This document shows, one piece after another, positions 6,031-10,736 of a stretch of 64,000 bases of DNA (its first letter is position 1; every line of letters begins with the position of its first letter). The notes beneath the pieces are model-generated. The model was not told the origin of the DNA and searched no databases. It saw nothing but the letters and a program-made list of their open reading frames with translations. Source of the DNA: Rhodospirillales bacterium (GTDB lineage: Bacteria; Pseudomonadota; Alphaproteobacteria; Rhodospirillales; Casp-alpha2); the NCBI GenBank assembly GCA_017640505.1, contig JAEPQO010000001.1, forward strand, positions 1,442,625 through 1,506,624, read 5' to 3'. The position numbers were made by a program, and so were the translations under genes.

Positions 6031-6120
6031 GGAGGGGTGGCCGAGTGGCTGAAGGCGCTGGTTTGCTAAACCAGTATACGGGAAACTGTATCGAGGGTTC
6101 GAATCCCTTCCCCTCCGCCA
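6031..6120 (+). tRNA. tRNA-Ser (anticodon GCU)
   Basis: A 90-nt class II tRNA with the CCA encoded. The acceptor stem GGAGGGG pairs with CCCCTCC; the D-arm GGCCGAGTGGCTGAAGGC, anticodon loop TTGCTAA with GCT anticodon (reads AGC/AGU), long variable arm TATACGGGAAACTGTA, and T-arm GGGTTCGAATCCC are all visible. It stands at the left edge of the accessory island that follows; tRNA-Ser 3' ends are common phage attachment sites. Confidence 0.97.
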
Positions 6121-6128
6121 TTTTTCTA

Positions 6129-6331: not shown

Positions 6332-7540
6332 TTGACGAAATTCTTGAAAGTTTTGGTGAGAAAACGGAACTCTAACCAAAGTCAAAGGGTCAACGTCAAA
6401 GCCCTCATTTCAAAAACGTCGAAGTGGGTGGCTGATCGTTTACGCAACCGTCAAGACAAGACTGTCGCCAAGGCCATCGCTGACATCGAAACTGATATCG
6501 ATGCAAGCCGTGCGGAGCTTGATCAGAAGGTTGCCGATGCCGCGAGTAGCGCGTCCGCGGCCAGTGCCTCGCAAACCGCATCAGAGTCGGCTCGCTCCGC
6601 TGCTGAACTGGCTCAGGCAGGGGCTGAAGTCGCCGAAGTTGGCGCGCAATCCGCCGAGACCAGTGCCCTTGGCGCACAGACAGCCGCCGAGGTGGCCCGG
6701 GACGCGGCAAGCACGAGCGCGAACTCTGCGGCGGCCAGCGAATTAGCGGCTGGTGTTTCCGAGACAAATGCTGCTGCGAGCGCCACGGCGGTCGGGGTTT
6801 CTGAAGCCAATGCCTCGGTAAGTGCCGGCGTTGCGAATACGAAAGCTGATGAGGCTTCCGCCAGTGCTGTCGCTGCGGCAGGGTCGGCAACGGCTGCTGC
6901 TGCCAGTGCTGCAGAGGCGAGTGGCGCAGCGGCATCTCTGAACTTGCCGACTGCCATCGGAGAGGGCGGCAGGTATCTCCGTCAAAAGCAGGACGAGACG
7001 GGGTTGGAGTATGCCGAAGTCGATCTCGCCAGCCGGGTCGCCAAAGCAGGCGACAGCATGAGCGGGGATTTGTCTCTGCCCAACCTGGTGGCGTCCGGAT
7101 CTGTTCGCTCCGGCTCCACCGGGGACGATGCCCGTAATACCGGCTTCAAAATTGCCGATGGAACCGACATCGGCGAGCTCAATCGCAGTAGCCAATACTA
7201 TGATGATCGGGTCAACAACTGTGCGGGCTACATCCCCAATGGAAACTGCTTCGGGGATGCCCAGTGGACGCCGCCAAACGGAGATTGGTGGACCTGGGGA
7301 CTTGGTTTCTCTCCCGGCAATCCTGGCTATGATTTTGCCGGTGGCCAGACAATCGGCTACCAGGCGGTTTCCGTCGGCTTTGTATATGGCTCATACAATC
7401 TGGCCGCCGACGAGATCGGTGGTGCGGAGTATCGGCGCAACTACAACAACTGCAACTGCGGCAGCTTCAACTGCTACTCCAACTGTAACTGCAACTGCAA
7501 TTGCGCCTGCGATTGCGACTGCAATTGTGGCGATGCGTGA
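6332..7540 (+). CDS. Phage tail-fibre-like protein with Cys-rich alternating C-terminal tail
   Basis: About 402 residues. Order: a basic N-terminus (1-45), a long Ala/Ser-rich region of degenerate repeats (about 60-205) like the trimeric helical shafts of phage tail fibres, then a fibre-type segment containing KAGDSMSGDLSLP (about residue 237), a Trp/Gly/Tyr-rich domain (about 290-370), and a last 30 residues with 11 cysteines mostly in X-C alternation (NCNCNCNCACDCDCNC). There is no ATG in frame near the start: TTG 6332 or GTG 6356 must be used, or the 5' end is truncated from a longer fibre gene. Function unknown; no integrase, capsid or other phage gene is in the window. The hexamer-like AACTGC codon repeats at 7448-7531 may reflect repeat expansion. 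Confidence 0.7.
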   Translation: MTKFLKVLVRKRNSNQSQRVNVKALISKTSKWVADRLRNRQDKTVAKAIADIETDIDASRAELDQKVADAASSASAASASQTASESARSAAELAQAGAEVAEVGAQSAETSALGAQTAAEVARDAASTSANSAAASELAAGVSETNAAASATAVGVSEANASVSAGVANTKADEASASAVAAAGSATAAAASAAEASGAAASLNLPTAIGEGGRYLRQKQDETGLEYAEVDLASRVAKAGDSMSGDLSLPNLVASGSVRSGSTGDDARNTGFKIADGTDIGELNRSSQYYDDRVNNCAGYIPNGNCFGDAQWTPPNGDWWTWGLGFSPGNPGYDFAGGQTIGYQAVSVGFVYGSYNLAADEIGGAEYRRNYNNCNCGSFNCYSNCNCNCNCACDCDCNCGDA

Positions 7541-7549
7541 GGTCTCACC

Positions 7550-7993
7550 ATGATCCAATCTTTTACGCGACATTTTTTCGCGCTGTCCACGCCTGTTCTG
7601 GTTCAGGTGATGCGATCCGATCGCAAGGTTACGGTTCGGACCTTCCGAGAAGCGGTCGGTGCGATGGCAAAGGAGAGTGGCAACCGTGTGCTTCGTGGCT
7701 CTGGCGTGACAGCTAGGCTGGCAGCACAAGCCAAAACTGCGGAGCAGGACTGGCGCGGTCGTTTGATCGCCGGTCATCTGCTGGACGTGCGCTTCGAGGG
7801 TCGAGCGTTCGAGTTCCTGGGAGCGACCTTTTTGGATCTTGATGGGGCACTTGGACGCACGGAATGGACTGATTTCGGGAATTGGGTGTTTCCGTTGGAC
7901 CGGGACGGGACGCCAAGAATTCCCTTTATGCGTGTATGTTTCTGGATGGGCGCGGAGGTAACGGAGCGTGCCAAGACCCGATGCGATACTTAG
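7550..7993 (+). CDS. Unrecognised companion ORF of the Cys-tail gene, 3' end probably altered
   Basis: A 147-codon ORF starting 9 bp after the tail-like gene, with GAGG 7 nt before its ATG, so probably cotranscribed. The protein is soluble and mixed alpha/beta in appearance, with TVRTFREAVGAMAKESG and a Trp/Phe-rich second half (FLGATFLDLDG, WTDFGNWVF). I do not recognise the family. From about 7935 the codons lie antisense to the truncated aminotransferase gene, so the last 20 residues are likely read-through into host sequence after an insertion or deletion junction and the native C-terminus may be lost. The opposite strand here encodes nothing plausible. Confidence 0.5.
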   Translation: MIQSFTRHFFALSTPVLVQVMRSDRKVTVRTFREAVGAMAKESGNRVLRGSGVTARLAAQAKTAEQDWRGRLIAGHLLDVRFEGRAFEFLGATFLDLDGALGRTEWTDFGNWVFPLDRDGTPRIPFMRVCFWMGAEVTERAKTRCDT

Positions 7994-8968
7994 GGGATTC
8001 CCGGAAAACGTTCCGCCGAAGAAAATGCCGCCGGGCGAGGTAAAATCGCCGAACGATTCCATCAATTCTTTCCGGCCGGCCACGATACCGATCGGCAGCC
8101 CACCGGCAACGGCTTTGCCGTACGTCGTGATATCCGCTTCGATGCCGAAGCGCTCCTGCGCGCCGCCGTATGCAAGCCGGAACCCCGTCAGAACTTCGTC
8201 GAAGATGAGGATGATGCCGAGTTCGTCGCATAGTTTACGCAGTTCGGTTAGGAAGCCCTCGACCTCGCCGTCGGGGCGCGAGCCCTGTACGGGTTCGACC
8301 ATCACTGCGGCGAGCGTGTCCGCATTATCGCGGATCCTCTGCAGAGCAGCCGGGTGTTTATAGGGAAGTAAAGTCACGTCGTTGAGGACACCGTGCGGAA
8401 TCCCGTGACCGAGCGTCGTCGGCACGGGGGCGCCCGGCGCCGAACCGGGTGTTTCCCACACGAGGACACTGTCGTGGGCGCCATGGTAGCTGATATCGAA
8501 CAACGCGATGTTCGTCTTTCCGGTCAGCGCGCGAGCCGCCCGGATGGCGTACATCGTCGCTTCGGTGCCGGTATTGCAAAACACCACCCGCTCATTCGAT
8601 TCCGACGCGGACTGGATAAGGCGCGCGTACGCCAGTTGTGCTTCGCCGCGCAGGCTGAAATGCCAGCCACGTCCGAGTTGGTCCCGTATTGCCGCCTCGA
8701 CGGCAGCGGGCCTGTGGCCGAGTAAGTGTACACCGAACCCCATGCAGGTATCGAGATAGGAATTGCCGTCTATATCCTCGAAGTAGGCGCCCTCGTTTCG
8801 GGTGATGAAAATCGGTGGTGGGCAGACACCCGACGCTGCCATGGCTCCGTTGATGACCTCGGTGCGGTCCAGCGCCATTTCCTGGGATAGAAGGGTTTTC
8901 GATGCCAGTGCGGCCTGGGCTTGTTCCAGTTCGGTGGTTTCCGAAATTCTCGCTGCATTCAGTGCCAT
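7930..8968 (-). pseudogene. Class III aminotransferase (glutamate-1-semialdehyde aminomutase-like), 3'-truncated
   Basis: PLP-dependent fold type I enzyme of the class III/GSA-AM group. Residues 1-345 follow the family: GNSYLDTCMGFGVHLLGH, CNTGTEATMYAIRAAR (PLP phosphate loop), ILIFDEVLTGFR and the Schiff-base lysine at about 285 in TTYGKAVAGGLPIG. Homology stops abruptly after RYLRAHPETY (position about 7935); the roughly 90 residues expected after this are missing and the frame runs on as unrelated sequence antisense to the companion ORF and tail-like gene. Start overlaps the upstream 77-codon ORF by 10 bp, and luxI lies further upstream, so this was the last gene of a quorum-sensing operon before truncation. 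Probably nonfunctional. Confidence 0.8.
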
Positions 8969-9192
8969 TGTTTTTTACCCCCTTCCTCGGTGGTTGTGTC
9001 GCCGTTGTTCACGTCGTCGGCGTCGCCCAAATTCTGCAGCCCACGCGAACCAAGTTCCTCATCGACAGCCTTGTTTGCCTCCTCCAATGAGGCGCCAACG
9101 CGGGCGAAGCCACTGCGGTTCGCCTCCCGGATCAGATACGTGATGGCGTGCCTGAAGCTTTCTGCGAGGCGTAAGGTGCTATGACGGGGCAT
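8959..9192 (-). CDS. Small 77-residue protein between luxI and the aminotransferase
   Basis: I do not recognise this protein. It has an amphipathic helical N-terminal half (LRLAESFRHAITYLIREANR) and an acidic, Gly/Asp/Thr-rich C-terminal tail. It starts 16 bp after luxI with GGAAAG before the ATG and overlaps the aminotransferase start by 10 bp, an arrangement that indicates one transcript luxI-orf77-aminotransferase. It may be an accessory subunit or carrier-like partner of the aminotransferase product pathway, which is speculation. Confidence 0.6.
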   Translation of the reverse strand: MPRHSTLRLAESFRHAITYLIREANRSGFARVGASLEEANKAVDEELGSRGLQNLGDADDVNNGDTTTEEGGKKQWH

Positions 9193-9208
9193 GCGTTCGT
9201 CTTTCCGA

Positions 9209-9853
9209 TCAGGCTGCTACGGATTGATCCCAGAGTGCCATTTGCCGAATGATTGGCGCTTGGGTGCGGTATTTCTCTCGCAGGGACTGGAGCAGGCCGC
9301 CATCGATGTCATACCGTGCGACGAGGGCCCTTGTTTCTCCGAGAGATTGAACTGAACTGCGCCATACCGGCGCGCGGCCTCTTGCCCGTGCATGTAGCCG
9401 GGCCACGGCAGGCGTTTCGACGGAGATGATTTCCCTGACGTTGTAAGAAACAGCGAACTCCGTGATCCCGACGAGCAGCGAGGCCGTGGCTTCATCGATG
9501 CCGCTGACGCTCACGTGCCGTTCCGGTGGATTCACGACAAACCGGCTGCATTCCCAGATGCTCTCGGCTTGGGGCGGCTCAACGTCGCCGAAAAGTGCCC
9601 TGAACACCGTTGACGCCATGTACGGGCGGGTCGTCGGCAGAAGCCGCCATGCGCCGATGACGTTTTGTGTTTCGTCCGAAACAATGAGGTACGCGGTATC
9701 GGGTCGGTCGAACTGGTCCCGTTCTTCCCCGTTGTTGCATTCAACGGACCACCCGAGCTGTTCCTTGAAGATGCGATGACGGAGACGGAACATCTCTCTG
9801 AGGAGGTGGCCGTAGTGGCTGGCATTCTGCGAAGTGATTAGATCAATCATCAT
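9209..9853 (-). CDS. luxI: Acyl-homoserine-lactone synthase, LuxI family
   Basis: Makes an N-acyl-homoserine lactone from S-adenosylmethionine and an acyl carrier. The invariant residues are visible at family spacing: Arg25 and Phe29 (RLRHRIF), Trp35, Asp46 and Asp49 (DQFDRPD), Arg70 (GAWRLLPTTRP), Glu101 and Arg104 (IWECSRFVV). Length 214 aa is normal. Two ATGs (9853, 9850) follow an AGGGGG ribosome site. The acyl chain cannot be predicted. Partner luxR is upstream on the same strand, and two more genes follow in the same direction. Confidence 0.95.
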   Translation of the reverse strand: MMIDLITSQNASHYGHLLREMFRLRHRIFKEQLGWSVECNNGEERDQFDRPDTAYLIVSDETQNVIGAWRLLPTTRPYMASTVFRALFGDVEPPQAESIWECSRFVVNPPERHVSVSGIDEATASLLVGITEFAVSYNVREIISVETPAVARLHARARGRAPVWRSSVQSLGETRALVARYDIDGGLLQSLREKYRTQAPIIRQMALWDQSVAA

Positions 9854-9857
9854 TGCC

Positions 9858-9875
9858 CCCTGCTGATACGCAGGT
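9858..9875 (-). promoter_or_regulatory. Dyad overlapping the luxI ribosome-binding region (possible second lux-type site)
   Basis: On the minus strand ACCTGCGTATCAGCAGGG forms an imperfect 18-bp palindrome (CCTGC/GCAGG arms) ending 4 nt before the luxI ATG. A related CCCCCTGCTG arm at 9856-9865 is matched in inverted orientation at 9944-9953. It may be a LuxR operator or a translational hairpin masking the ribosome site; the position is too close to the start for a classical activator site. Confidence 0.35.
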
Positions 9876-9986
9876 GCAATTCAAGCGATTTAGCTAAACG
9901 AGCGCAGTCCGCCCAAAGGCGGAGTGGGTACAACTGATAGACGCAGCAGGGGGGTTACTGCGCGGTAAGACGGTATCTTTCGCGGA

Positions 9987-10736
9987 TCAGGGAAGAATAA
10001 GGCGGGTCAGGATAGCCTTCACCACGGCATGGTGCTTTGAATAACTACCGAGTTTTCTGGCCGCGCTGGCAAGATGCTGCTTGGCCGTCCGTTCGGAGAT
10101 CGAGAGGATGTTGCCGATTTCCCAGGCGGTGTTGCCGCGGCTCGTGAGAACGAGGCACTCTCGCTCGCGTTTGGTCAGATTTGGCTCAGGAACCGTTTCA
10201 GGCTGCGGTTCGAAGCTGCTGTACTTTTCATGAAAGTAAAGGCTGAACACATGAAATTCATGCCTGTGACGTTTCCAGGCTTCCTGGAATTCCCTGCTAT
10301 TGGATGAGAATACCGACAACGTGGCAAGGCCGAAGCCGGCTTCATGAATCGGGACCTCTGCGCCGTCCGTTATTCCGAAATCCCGTGCCTCGTTCATGAC
10401 CAGTCGCTCCGGTGCGTTTACCGGGCGGTCCAGAAGAGCCTCTTGCCATGTGAACGGTGTTACCGACTGAAGCAGCCGTTCTGCGACCGGATCGATGTCG
10501 ACATAGTGATTGTCTTCATAGCGCTTGAGCCATTCGTCAGGCCATTGGCCGAAGTAATCGATGCTGCCGTCCGAGGGCTGGTATTTGTGATACGAATAGC
10601 CGCCAAAACCGAAGTTGCGGACGGCTTGGTCCATCAACGACTGGAGCTCCGCGGGCGTAGCCGCAGCCTCGATTGCCGTCAGAAGATCTATCAGCGCCGG
10701 CGTCAAACCATCCCCCCGTTCGCTTCTAAGAAGCAT
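9987..10736 (-). CDS. luxR: LuxR-family quorum-sensing transcriptional regulator
   Basis: AHL-responsive activator. The N-terminal autoinducer-binding domain shows the conserved Trp/Tyr/Asp/Pro pattern (DEWLKRYEDNHYVDIDP, then PFTWQE), and the C-terminal LuxR HTH is clear (LTKRERECLVLTSRGNTAWE, then SISERTAKQHLASAARKLG; about residues 185-245). Length 249 aa is standard. It lies 133 bp upstream of luxI on the same strand. The start at 10736 has only a modest ribosome site; a 20-bp lux-box-like palindrome sits 19 bp upstream, pointing to autoregulation. Confidence 0.94.
   Translation of the reverse strand: MLLRSERGDGLTPALIDLLTAIEAAATPAELQSLMDQAVRNFGFGGYSYHKYQPSDGSIDYFGQWPDEWLKRYEDNHYVDIDPVAERLLQSVTPFTWQEALLDRPVNAPERLVMNEARDFGITDGAEVPIHEAGFGLATLSVFSSNSREFQEAWKRHRHEFHVFSLYFHEKYSSFEPQPETVPEPNLTKRERECLVLTSRGNTAWEIGNILSISERTAKQHLASAARKLGSYSKHHAVVKAILTRLILP

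Follow-up and report, generated by a model that had tools for sequence, protein, structure and literature searches.

A C-terminal cysteine array of phage fibre proteins and a neighbouring radical SAM/SPASM enzyme as a candidate system for RiPP-like virion maturation, with a decayed copy in a Rhodospirillales genome

Radical SAM peptide maturases are known for their roles in making bacteriocins, signals and cofactors, and we know of no case in which such a maturase makes part of a virus particle. Anaerobic sulfatase-maturating enzymes (anSME) oxidise a single cysteine or serine in a sulfatase motif. Hint and intein-like domains are characterised by a catalytic first cysteine and a block-B histidine, and gp37 of phage T4 carries His-X-His iron sites. 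The thioether acceptors of ranthipeptides include Asn in NxxcA and Asp in freyrasin, both made by SPASM enzymes, and QhpD is described as a radical SAM enzyme that places Cys-Asp and Cys-Glu thioethers in a protein (PMC8326336). Radical SAM genes have been noted in Campylobacter phages (PMC3322345), in the host-recognition region of pelagimyophages (PMC7029224) and in a Sphingomonadaceae phage, where the gene was termed an auxiliary metabolic gene (PMC9302152); in the available portions of these three papers none of these genes is connected with a Cys array or with modification of fibres. No description of a radical SAM enzyme building a virus particle was present among the literature matches listed, and one may exist elsewhere, since subscription papers and preprints lay mostly outside the scope of this search. 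The string 'NCNCNC' gave 14 literature matches, judged unrelated by their titles.

The stretch of DNA analysed here, hereafter the window, comprises 64,000 nucleotides from the genome of a Rhodospirillales bacterium and contains a tail-fibre-like ORF whose parts and neighbours are listed in Table 1. Its reading frame is open and the C-terminus is NCNCGSFNCYSNCNCNCNCACDCDCNCGDA; the last 30 residues hold 11 cysteines, eight of them in strict alternation with Asn, Ala or Asp. A degenerate DNA pattern representing four X-Cys pairs, with N, D, A, T, S or G allowed at X, gave five overlapping matches in the window, all within the strict array, none elsewhere in the 3.95 Mb genome and none in 100 dinucleotide-preserving shuffles of the window. 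The 11-Cys tail described in an earlier sequence-only reading is thus real, in frame and the only such site in the genome. That reading had also taken the protein to be of fibre type, in agreement with matches of the shaft to PHROG tail-fibre and minor-tail families (best 8e-13, partly compositional because the shaft is Ala-rich) and with the position of its relatives in phage tail modules. Its doubt about the 5' end was well placed, as similarity to viral fibres begins only at 6457 and the first ~42 codons have no match, so that the original fibre N-terminus is gone. No Pfam family matched the ORF up to E = 1, and membership of a known Cys-rich family was ruled out by the same scan. No solved relative of the fibre C-terminal domain was found with a score better than E = 0.48, and an AlphaFold model of this domain was unusable (mean pLDDT 45).

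Table 1. Position of the tail-fibre-like ORF, its parts and its neighbours in the window
Feature	Position	Strand	Basis or remark
tRNA-Ser (GCT)	6031..6120	+	ARAGORN; same-genus synteny ends just past the 3' end, the probable insertion point
Tail-fibre-like ORF, 402 aa	6332..7540	+	TTG start; single copy in genome; viral relatives
5' part of ORF, dissimilar to viral fibres (N-terminus replaced or lost)	6332..6456	+	Compared at DNA and protein level with viral loci and L061
Ala/Ser-rich shaft	6457..6943	+	Phage DNA similarity from 6457; PHROG tail-fibre and minor-tail matches
Fibre C-terminal domain, NCxG..GNC..WWTW..DEIGG	7025..7444	+	Alignment of 34 sequences
Cys tail with strict X-Cys array at 7481-7528; proposed radical SAM/SPASM substrate in intact phages	7448..7537	+	
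Truncated partner gene ORF2	7550..7993	+	Residues 1-128 match a ~295 aa protein adjoining the fibre in phages
Aminotransferase-like gene (named by eye), 3' end cut at island border	8003..8968	-	322 aa kept

Using the C-terminal 198 residues (6944-7537) as query, 58 loci were identified in viral contigs, the eleven closest being 76-86% identical, and an alternating Cys run was encoded on the coding strand in all 58. In an alignment of 13 close relatives, 10 of the 11 Cys columns were pure Cys, one of these being filled in just 8 of the 13 sequences, while the impure column contained a single Tyr, in L002. TGC and TGT codons were mixed in 9 of the 11 columns, which together with the purity of the columns argues for conservation of the protein rather than of a DNA repeat. 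A frameshift product or DNA-repeat artefact was accordingly ruled out, the relatives having the tail in frame with both codons in use. The sequence-only reading had named two outcomes that would speak against it, a tail confined to one strain or out of frame in relatives, and membership of a well-described phage family. Neither applies: the relatives keep the tail in frame, no Pfam family matched, and none of 50,697 phage records covered 80% of the C-terminal part of the ORF.

Among the relatives retaining the Cys tail, a radical SAM protein was detected by profile at 51 of the 58 viral fibre loci, and the seven loci lacking it (L008, L014, L017, L029, L033, L035 and L051) have between 1 and 1,619 bases of DNA after the array. 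One of the guesses originally made about the tail, that it is a substrate for modification, therefore gained a candidate maturase, encoded in the relatives and outside the window. In L003 and L005 the gene order is a large ORF, an ORF of ~160 aa, the fibre, ORF2 and two radical SAM genes of ~338 and ~455 aa. Downstream of the L005 enzymes lies a minor tail protein (DUF1833/phrog_396), and upstream an ORF of 972 aa was read by eye as a tape measure, which places the relatives of the window ORF in a phage tail module. Most of the remaining viral loci showed the large enzyme and not the small one.

All four radical SAM proteins scanned (three large, one small) scored above cut-off with Pfam Radical_SAM (PF04055) and with the NCBIfam SPASM model TIGR04085. 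The CX3CX2C motif of the SAM cluster and the seven-Cys SPASM motif (CX9-15GX4C-gap-CX2CX5CX3C-gap-C) were present in all 20 large enzymes aligned. The nearest NCBIfam models were mostly peptide maturases (PapB, nif11, geopeptide, SCIFF and QhpD-type), with viperin-type and sulfatase-maturase models also among the matches; all named families scored far below their cut-offs (PapB 48-63 bits against 340; nif11 up to 70 against 518.7; QhpD-type TIGR03906 6e-14 to 9e-10, cut-off unmet), so that the enzyme is a family of its own. It matches PHROG 1802, which as a genome probe gave matches in all 14 control genomes and was too general, and a profile from our own alignment was therefore used in genome searches. 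Enzymes matching over at least 80% of the length were found in 3 of 50,697 phage records, from Achromobacter phages JWF and 2-1 only. A gene of the family is located at 8818-10176 of OQ974181.1 (L080), and similarity to the radical SAM genes of Campylobacter and Thermus phages was confined to the core.

The AlphaFold model of the enzyme had a mean pLDDT of 88 and a pTM of 0.89. Its best fold matches in the PDB were 5why/5wgg (2.8e-12; title 'Structural Insights into Thioether Bond Formation in the Biosynthesis of Sactipeptides'), which we take to be CteB, followed by anSMEcpe (1.1e-11), then TigE and ChlB, with EpeE lower at 4.9e-7. No RRE, the domain that binds leader peptides, was recognised by Pfam, and the part of the model N-terminal to the radical SAM domain shows three strands, without the full set of helices. 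The phage enzymes thus share with the maturases of ranthipeptides and sactipeptides (CteB/SCIFF, PapB and that of NxxcA) a radical SAM and SPASM architecture with all cluster cysteines and a Cys-rich target encoded close by, and the X residues of the array include the Asn and Asp that act as acceptors in NxxcA and freyrasin. They differ in having no recognised RRE, in scoring far below the cut-offs of the named families and in being located in phage tail modules, and the presumed target is the C-terminus of a virion-type protein instead of a small leader-core peptide. QhpD is also a radical SAM enzyme with a protein target and its model is among those matched; however, it is bacterial and has one defined target, whereas the phage enzyme would face 3 to 10 alternating cysteines on many unrelated proteins.

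The small distance between CteB and anSMEcpe in the fold search, the match to EpeE and the annotation of the enzyme in KP202971 (phage JWF) as 'anaerobic sulfatase-maturating enzyme' would all suit an enzyme that acts on the array without forming thioethers, converting Cys to formylglycine or epimerising alternate residues and so creating a reactive or reshaped tip. The likeness to anSME extends to Cys as a substrate, but the targets of anSME are not known to include an array or a phage fibre, and the sulfatase motif C-x-[A/P]-x-R is apparently missing from the arrays. The closest NCBIfam models are, moreover, mostly those of peptide maturases, although far below cut-off and with a sulfatase maturase among them, and the annotation in phage JWF is probably misleading because in the related phage 2-1 the enzyme adjoins a protein with a Cys array and a Hint domain. 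Formylglycine formation or epimerisation is for these reasons considered unlikely, and thioether chemistry, to which the fold, the family and the choice of residues point, is the somewhat better supported of the activities that the enzyme may have.

The association of array and enzyme was assessed in both directions. Beginning with the array, the DNA pattern NCNCNC[N/D]C gave a set of at least 118 loci (115 newly found and 3 found before), which were grouped according to whether an ORF terminates with the array and searched with the enzyme profile at a limit of 80 bits. Among the matches listed, the enzyme was found in the locus for all 36 C-terminal arrays that have 5 kb or more of DNA after them, for 22 of 24 with 3-5 kb and for 9 of 27 with less than 3 kb, near 2 of 4 arrays followed by Hint and near 2 of 5 cut by a contig edge, against 1 of 22 arrays in other or spurious frames (0 of 6 with at least 5 kb). 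For the 36 arrays, again among the matches listed, the enzyme was downstream on the same strand in 35 and upstream by 1.9 kb in one (L265), and in five (L171, L173, L223, L238 and L265) it was a distant member scoring 90-152 bits. All 71 enzyme matches listed for the C-terminal and Hint groups lay on the same strand as the array, one of them overlapping the array ORF (L221). Related contigs inflate these counts: the 36 arrays among the matches listed comprise 33 different proteins, which fall into 11 clusters at 50% identity, so that the number of independent cases is nearer ten than thirty-six.

Beginning with the enzyme, the best 80 of 560 viral loci were considered, and 60 of them had a 4-Cys array. 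Of the 20 misses in this set, 15 had no more than ~2 kb of DNA ahead of the enzyme and four (L135, L139, L141 and L157) carried shorter or irregular Cys tails, and L111 was the sole viral locus among the best 80 of 560 at which no array was seen. The corresponding figures for genomes were 56 of 79 loci, and 48 of 63 where at least 5 kb of upstream DNA was available; five of the 15 misses in the latter group (L308, L313, L344, L348 and L355) carry shorter arrays, and no array was seen near the enzyme in 10 of the 63. The loci at which no array was seen may reflect either family members with a different target or arrays that escaped detection. At L336, L343, L351 and L354, which include two from Ramlibacter, one from Variovorax and a gammaproteobacterial MAG, the enzyme seems, by eye, to be paired with ATP-grasp-like genes or large genes for proteins of ~770-800 aa; no Cys array was seen at these four loci, which may represent another modification system.

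A control set was selected by the DUF1833 tail gene of L005 and comprised 80 loci, 58 of them with at least 4 kb upstream. Under the 4-Cys rule 51 of these 58 had neither array nor enzyme, five had both, two had the enzyme only and none the array only (Fisher p = 4.6e-6, the contigs not being independent of each other). The two exceptions, L384 and L385, encode a collagen-like protein ending in SNCNCNCGNQ, and with a 3-Cys rule for all 58 loci the distribution was 51 with neither, seven with both and none with only one. In the family to which the window's genome belongs, the enzyme profile was positive in 7 of 48 genomes at a limit of 1e-40. A Hint-type array fibre was encoded in six of the eight g7 genomes of this family, and the enzyme was found in the same six, downstream on the same strand; the seventh enzyme-bearing genome, G029, encodes a collagen-like protein ending in NCNCACDCGNN.

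An enzyme was found downstream of 181 different array proteins, which form 26 clusters at 50% identity, the largest with 130 members. Their bodies comprised the fibre domain found in the window, other fibre-type proteins, collagen-like proteins and small proteins, and the carrier at L049 had a PHROG tail fibre match. Up to three small array proteins occurred in tandem (L143, L146, L150, L151 and L160), and L046 encodes two array proteins and two enzymes. Strict runs contained 4 to 10 cysteines (runs of three being left out of the composition count), and the residues between them (n = 845) were mainly N (557), A (140) and D (94). The array lay at most 45 residues from the C-terminus in 165 of the 181 carriers. 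As open frames the array-bearing proteins measured ~70 to 730 aa and are thus not the short leader-core precursors of RiPPs. Gly-X-Y collagen-like proteins ending in a short NCNC array, with the enzyme in the locus, were seen at L384, L385, L387 and L307/L469, and the collagen-like protein of L384 is separated from the enzyme by an ORF2-type gene (by eye). The genome of Thalassobacter stenotrophicus holds three units of enzyme and short array (L346, L353 and L362; FNCNCNCRC or YNCNCNCRC).

In 14 carriers the array is followed directly by a Hint-like start such as CFPAGT..MADG, and L044 has a more distant Hint-like domain. The first Cys and the block-B His could be read by eye in eight of eight sequences, out of the 15 found, the block being AGAH and not TxxH in two. 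Pfam Hint scores were below the cut-off of 29.7 bits (22.4 in L063 and 22.7 in L044). In Achromobacter phage 2-1 a fibre-like protein contains NCNCDCNCSC, immediately followed by FPAGTMVLMADG; a single gene separates it from the gene for the enzyme. These domains resemble Hedgehog/Hint and bacterial intein-like domains in their start after the array, in a later [T/S]xxH-like block among the sequences read and in the weak Pfam matches; they differ in following a putative radical SAM substrate in a fibre and in scoring below the Pfam cut-offs. Their predicted self-cleavage seems somewhat more likely than not. A further, non-Hint domain was observed in L035 (7842-8742), L048 (3333-4394) and L178, where CTxLxxxGxM/L..GYxxWA comes directly after the array in place of Hint; searches of Pfam, NCBIfam and PHROG with the L035 protein gave no match.

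The axis of a trimer could be lined by alternating cysteines that share one face of a strand, and the array might instead be a metal-binding or disulfide-linked trimer tip, with ORF2, a host peptide or some other protein as the target of the enzyme. The needle of the T4 long tail fibre provides a parallel, having metal-site residues at every second position near the fibre tip, but these are His and not Cys and gp37 is not known to have a dedicated radical enzyme. In 193 of the 292 enzyme loci an ORF2-family protein is encoded no more than 6 kb from the enzyme, which makes ORF2 a frequent third partner and would agree with its being the target. In eight array loci, however, the enzyme frame (358-494 aa in six of them) starts 3 nt past the array ORF, so that ORF2 cannot fit between them, and the array is what carriers with unrelated bodies have in common, while control modules have both array and enzyme or neither. 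A metal- or disulfide-based tip with the enzyme acting on another protein is thus quite improbable. That the enzyme is an auxiliary metabolic gene merely located in the tail region, the label used for the radical SAM gene of the Sphingomonadaceae phage (PMC9302152), is very improbable in view of the array pairing in both directions in unrelated phages, the SPASM domain and peptide-maturase relatives, and the rarity of the enzyme (three of the 50,697 phage records at 80% of its length or more, with an array close by in phage 2-1).

Conservation of the array, pairing of the genes, the enzyme family and its predicted fold are direct observations. The gene pairing makes it very likely that the C-terminal X-Cys array is the substrate of the enzyme. 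Our preferred explanation is that phages possess a RiPP-like system in which a radical SAM/SPASM enzyme modifies fibre tips at the array, probably by means of Cys thioethers; we would put the probability of this explanation at roughly 0.7. The X-Cys array, with X mostly Asn, then Ala and Asp, would correspond to a 'core peptide' that is fused to a protein of the virion, and would be modified by the enzyme encoded close by, the Cys sulfurs most likely becoming joined to neighbouring residues by thioether bonds. Such bonds would make the fibre tip rigid and protease-resistant. Where a Hint domain is present, its first residue would be a Cys that closes the array; the domain would excise itself and expose the tip, leaving the same kind of end as in array proteins that have no Hint. 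We speculate that the hardened tip touches the host surface, and a role of the modified tip in host contact seems reasonably likely. In its widest form, as a RiPP-like maturation of tailed-phage virions in which the enzyme cross-links (Asn/Ala/Asp-Cys)n on fibres and other virion proteins, Hint sometimes removes itself and the tip takes part in host contact, the proposal is a probable one. The modification, of which we found no description, would then probably serve to harden or activate the fibre tips of array-bearing phages.

If true, the system would represent a type of virion maturation that is new and is shared by numerous phages and prophages, of which those found in named genomes belong mainly to Proteobacteria, and would bring new chemistry into the stabilisation of fibre tips. 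Phage genes annotated as 'radical SAM protein' or auxiliary metabolic gene would gain a testable function, and an X-Cys C-terminus beside a gene of the enzyme family would serve as a genome rule for finding new substrates, although the low-complexity filter of BLAST masks such termini. The cultured Achromobacter phages JWF and 2-1 would allow a direct test by mass spectrometry.

The locus in the window can be read from its sequence as a decayed fragment of a tailed-phage tail module stranded behind the tRNA-Ser gene, consisting of a fibre without its own N-terminus together with the first 128 residues of its partner. Phage-like DNA is limited to 6457-7919, with ~72% nucleotide identity to L002 and L003, and the remainder of ORF2 and both maturase genes are missing from the window. 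Matches to same-genus flanking DNA end at window position 6121 (G005) and 6123 (G001 and G003). The earlier view of the locus as a stranded piece of a mobile element is upheld by the narrow extent of the phage similarity and the truncation of the partner gene, but the accompanying statement that no tail genes are nearby has to be corrected, since a truncated second phage gene lies directly downstream and the fibre is not alone. A profile built from the alignment of 20 large enzymes found no maturase in the window's own genome, and at a limit of 1e-40 in none of eight genomes of its genus. With its N-terminal attachment part replaced and the maturase absent from the genome, the ORF does not qualify as a functional fibre. 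Its Cys tail is probably unmodified, since no maturase remains. Domestication, offered earlier as the other possible origin of the gene, is unsupported given the replaced N-terminus, the truncated partner and a genome without maturase. The aminotransferase-like gene looks foreign as well, because its best same-genus relatives (open frames of 426-460 aa) are only 37-43% identical over the aligned part. Beside the island, adjacent luxI-like and luxR-like genes (named by eye) are located on the reverse strand at 9209-9853 and 9987-10736.
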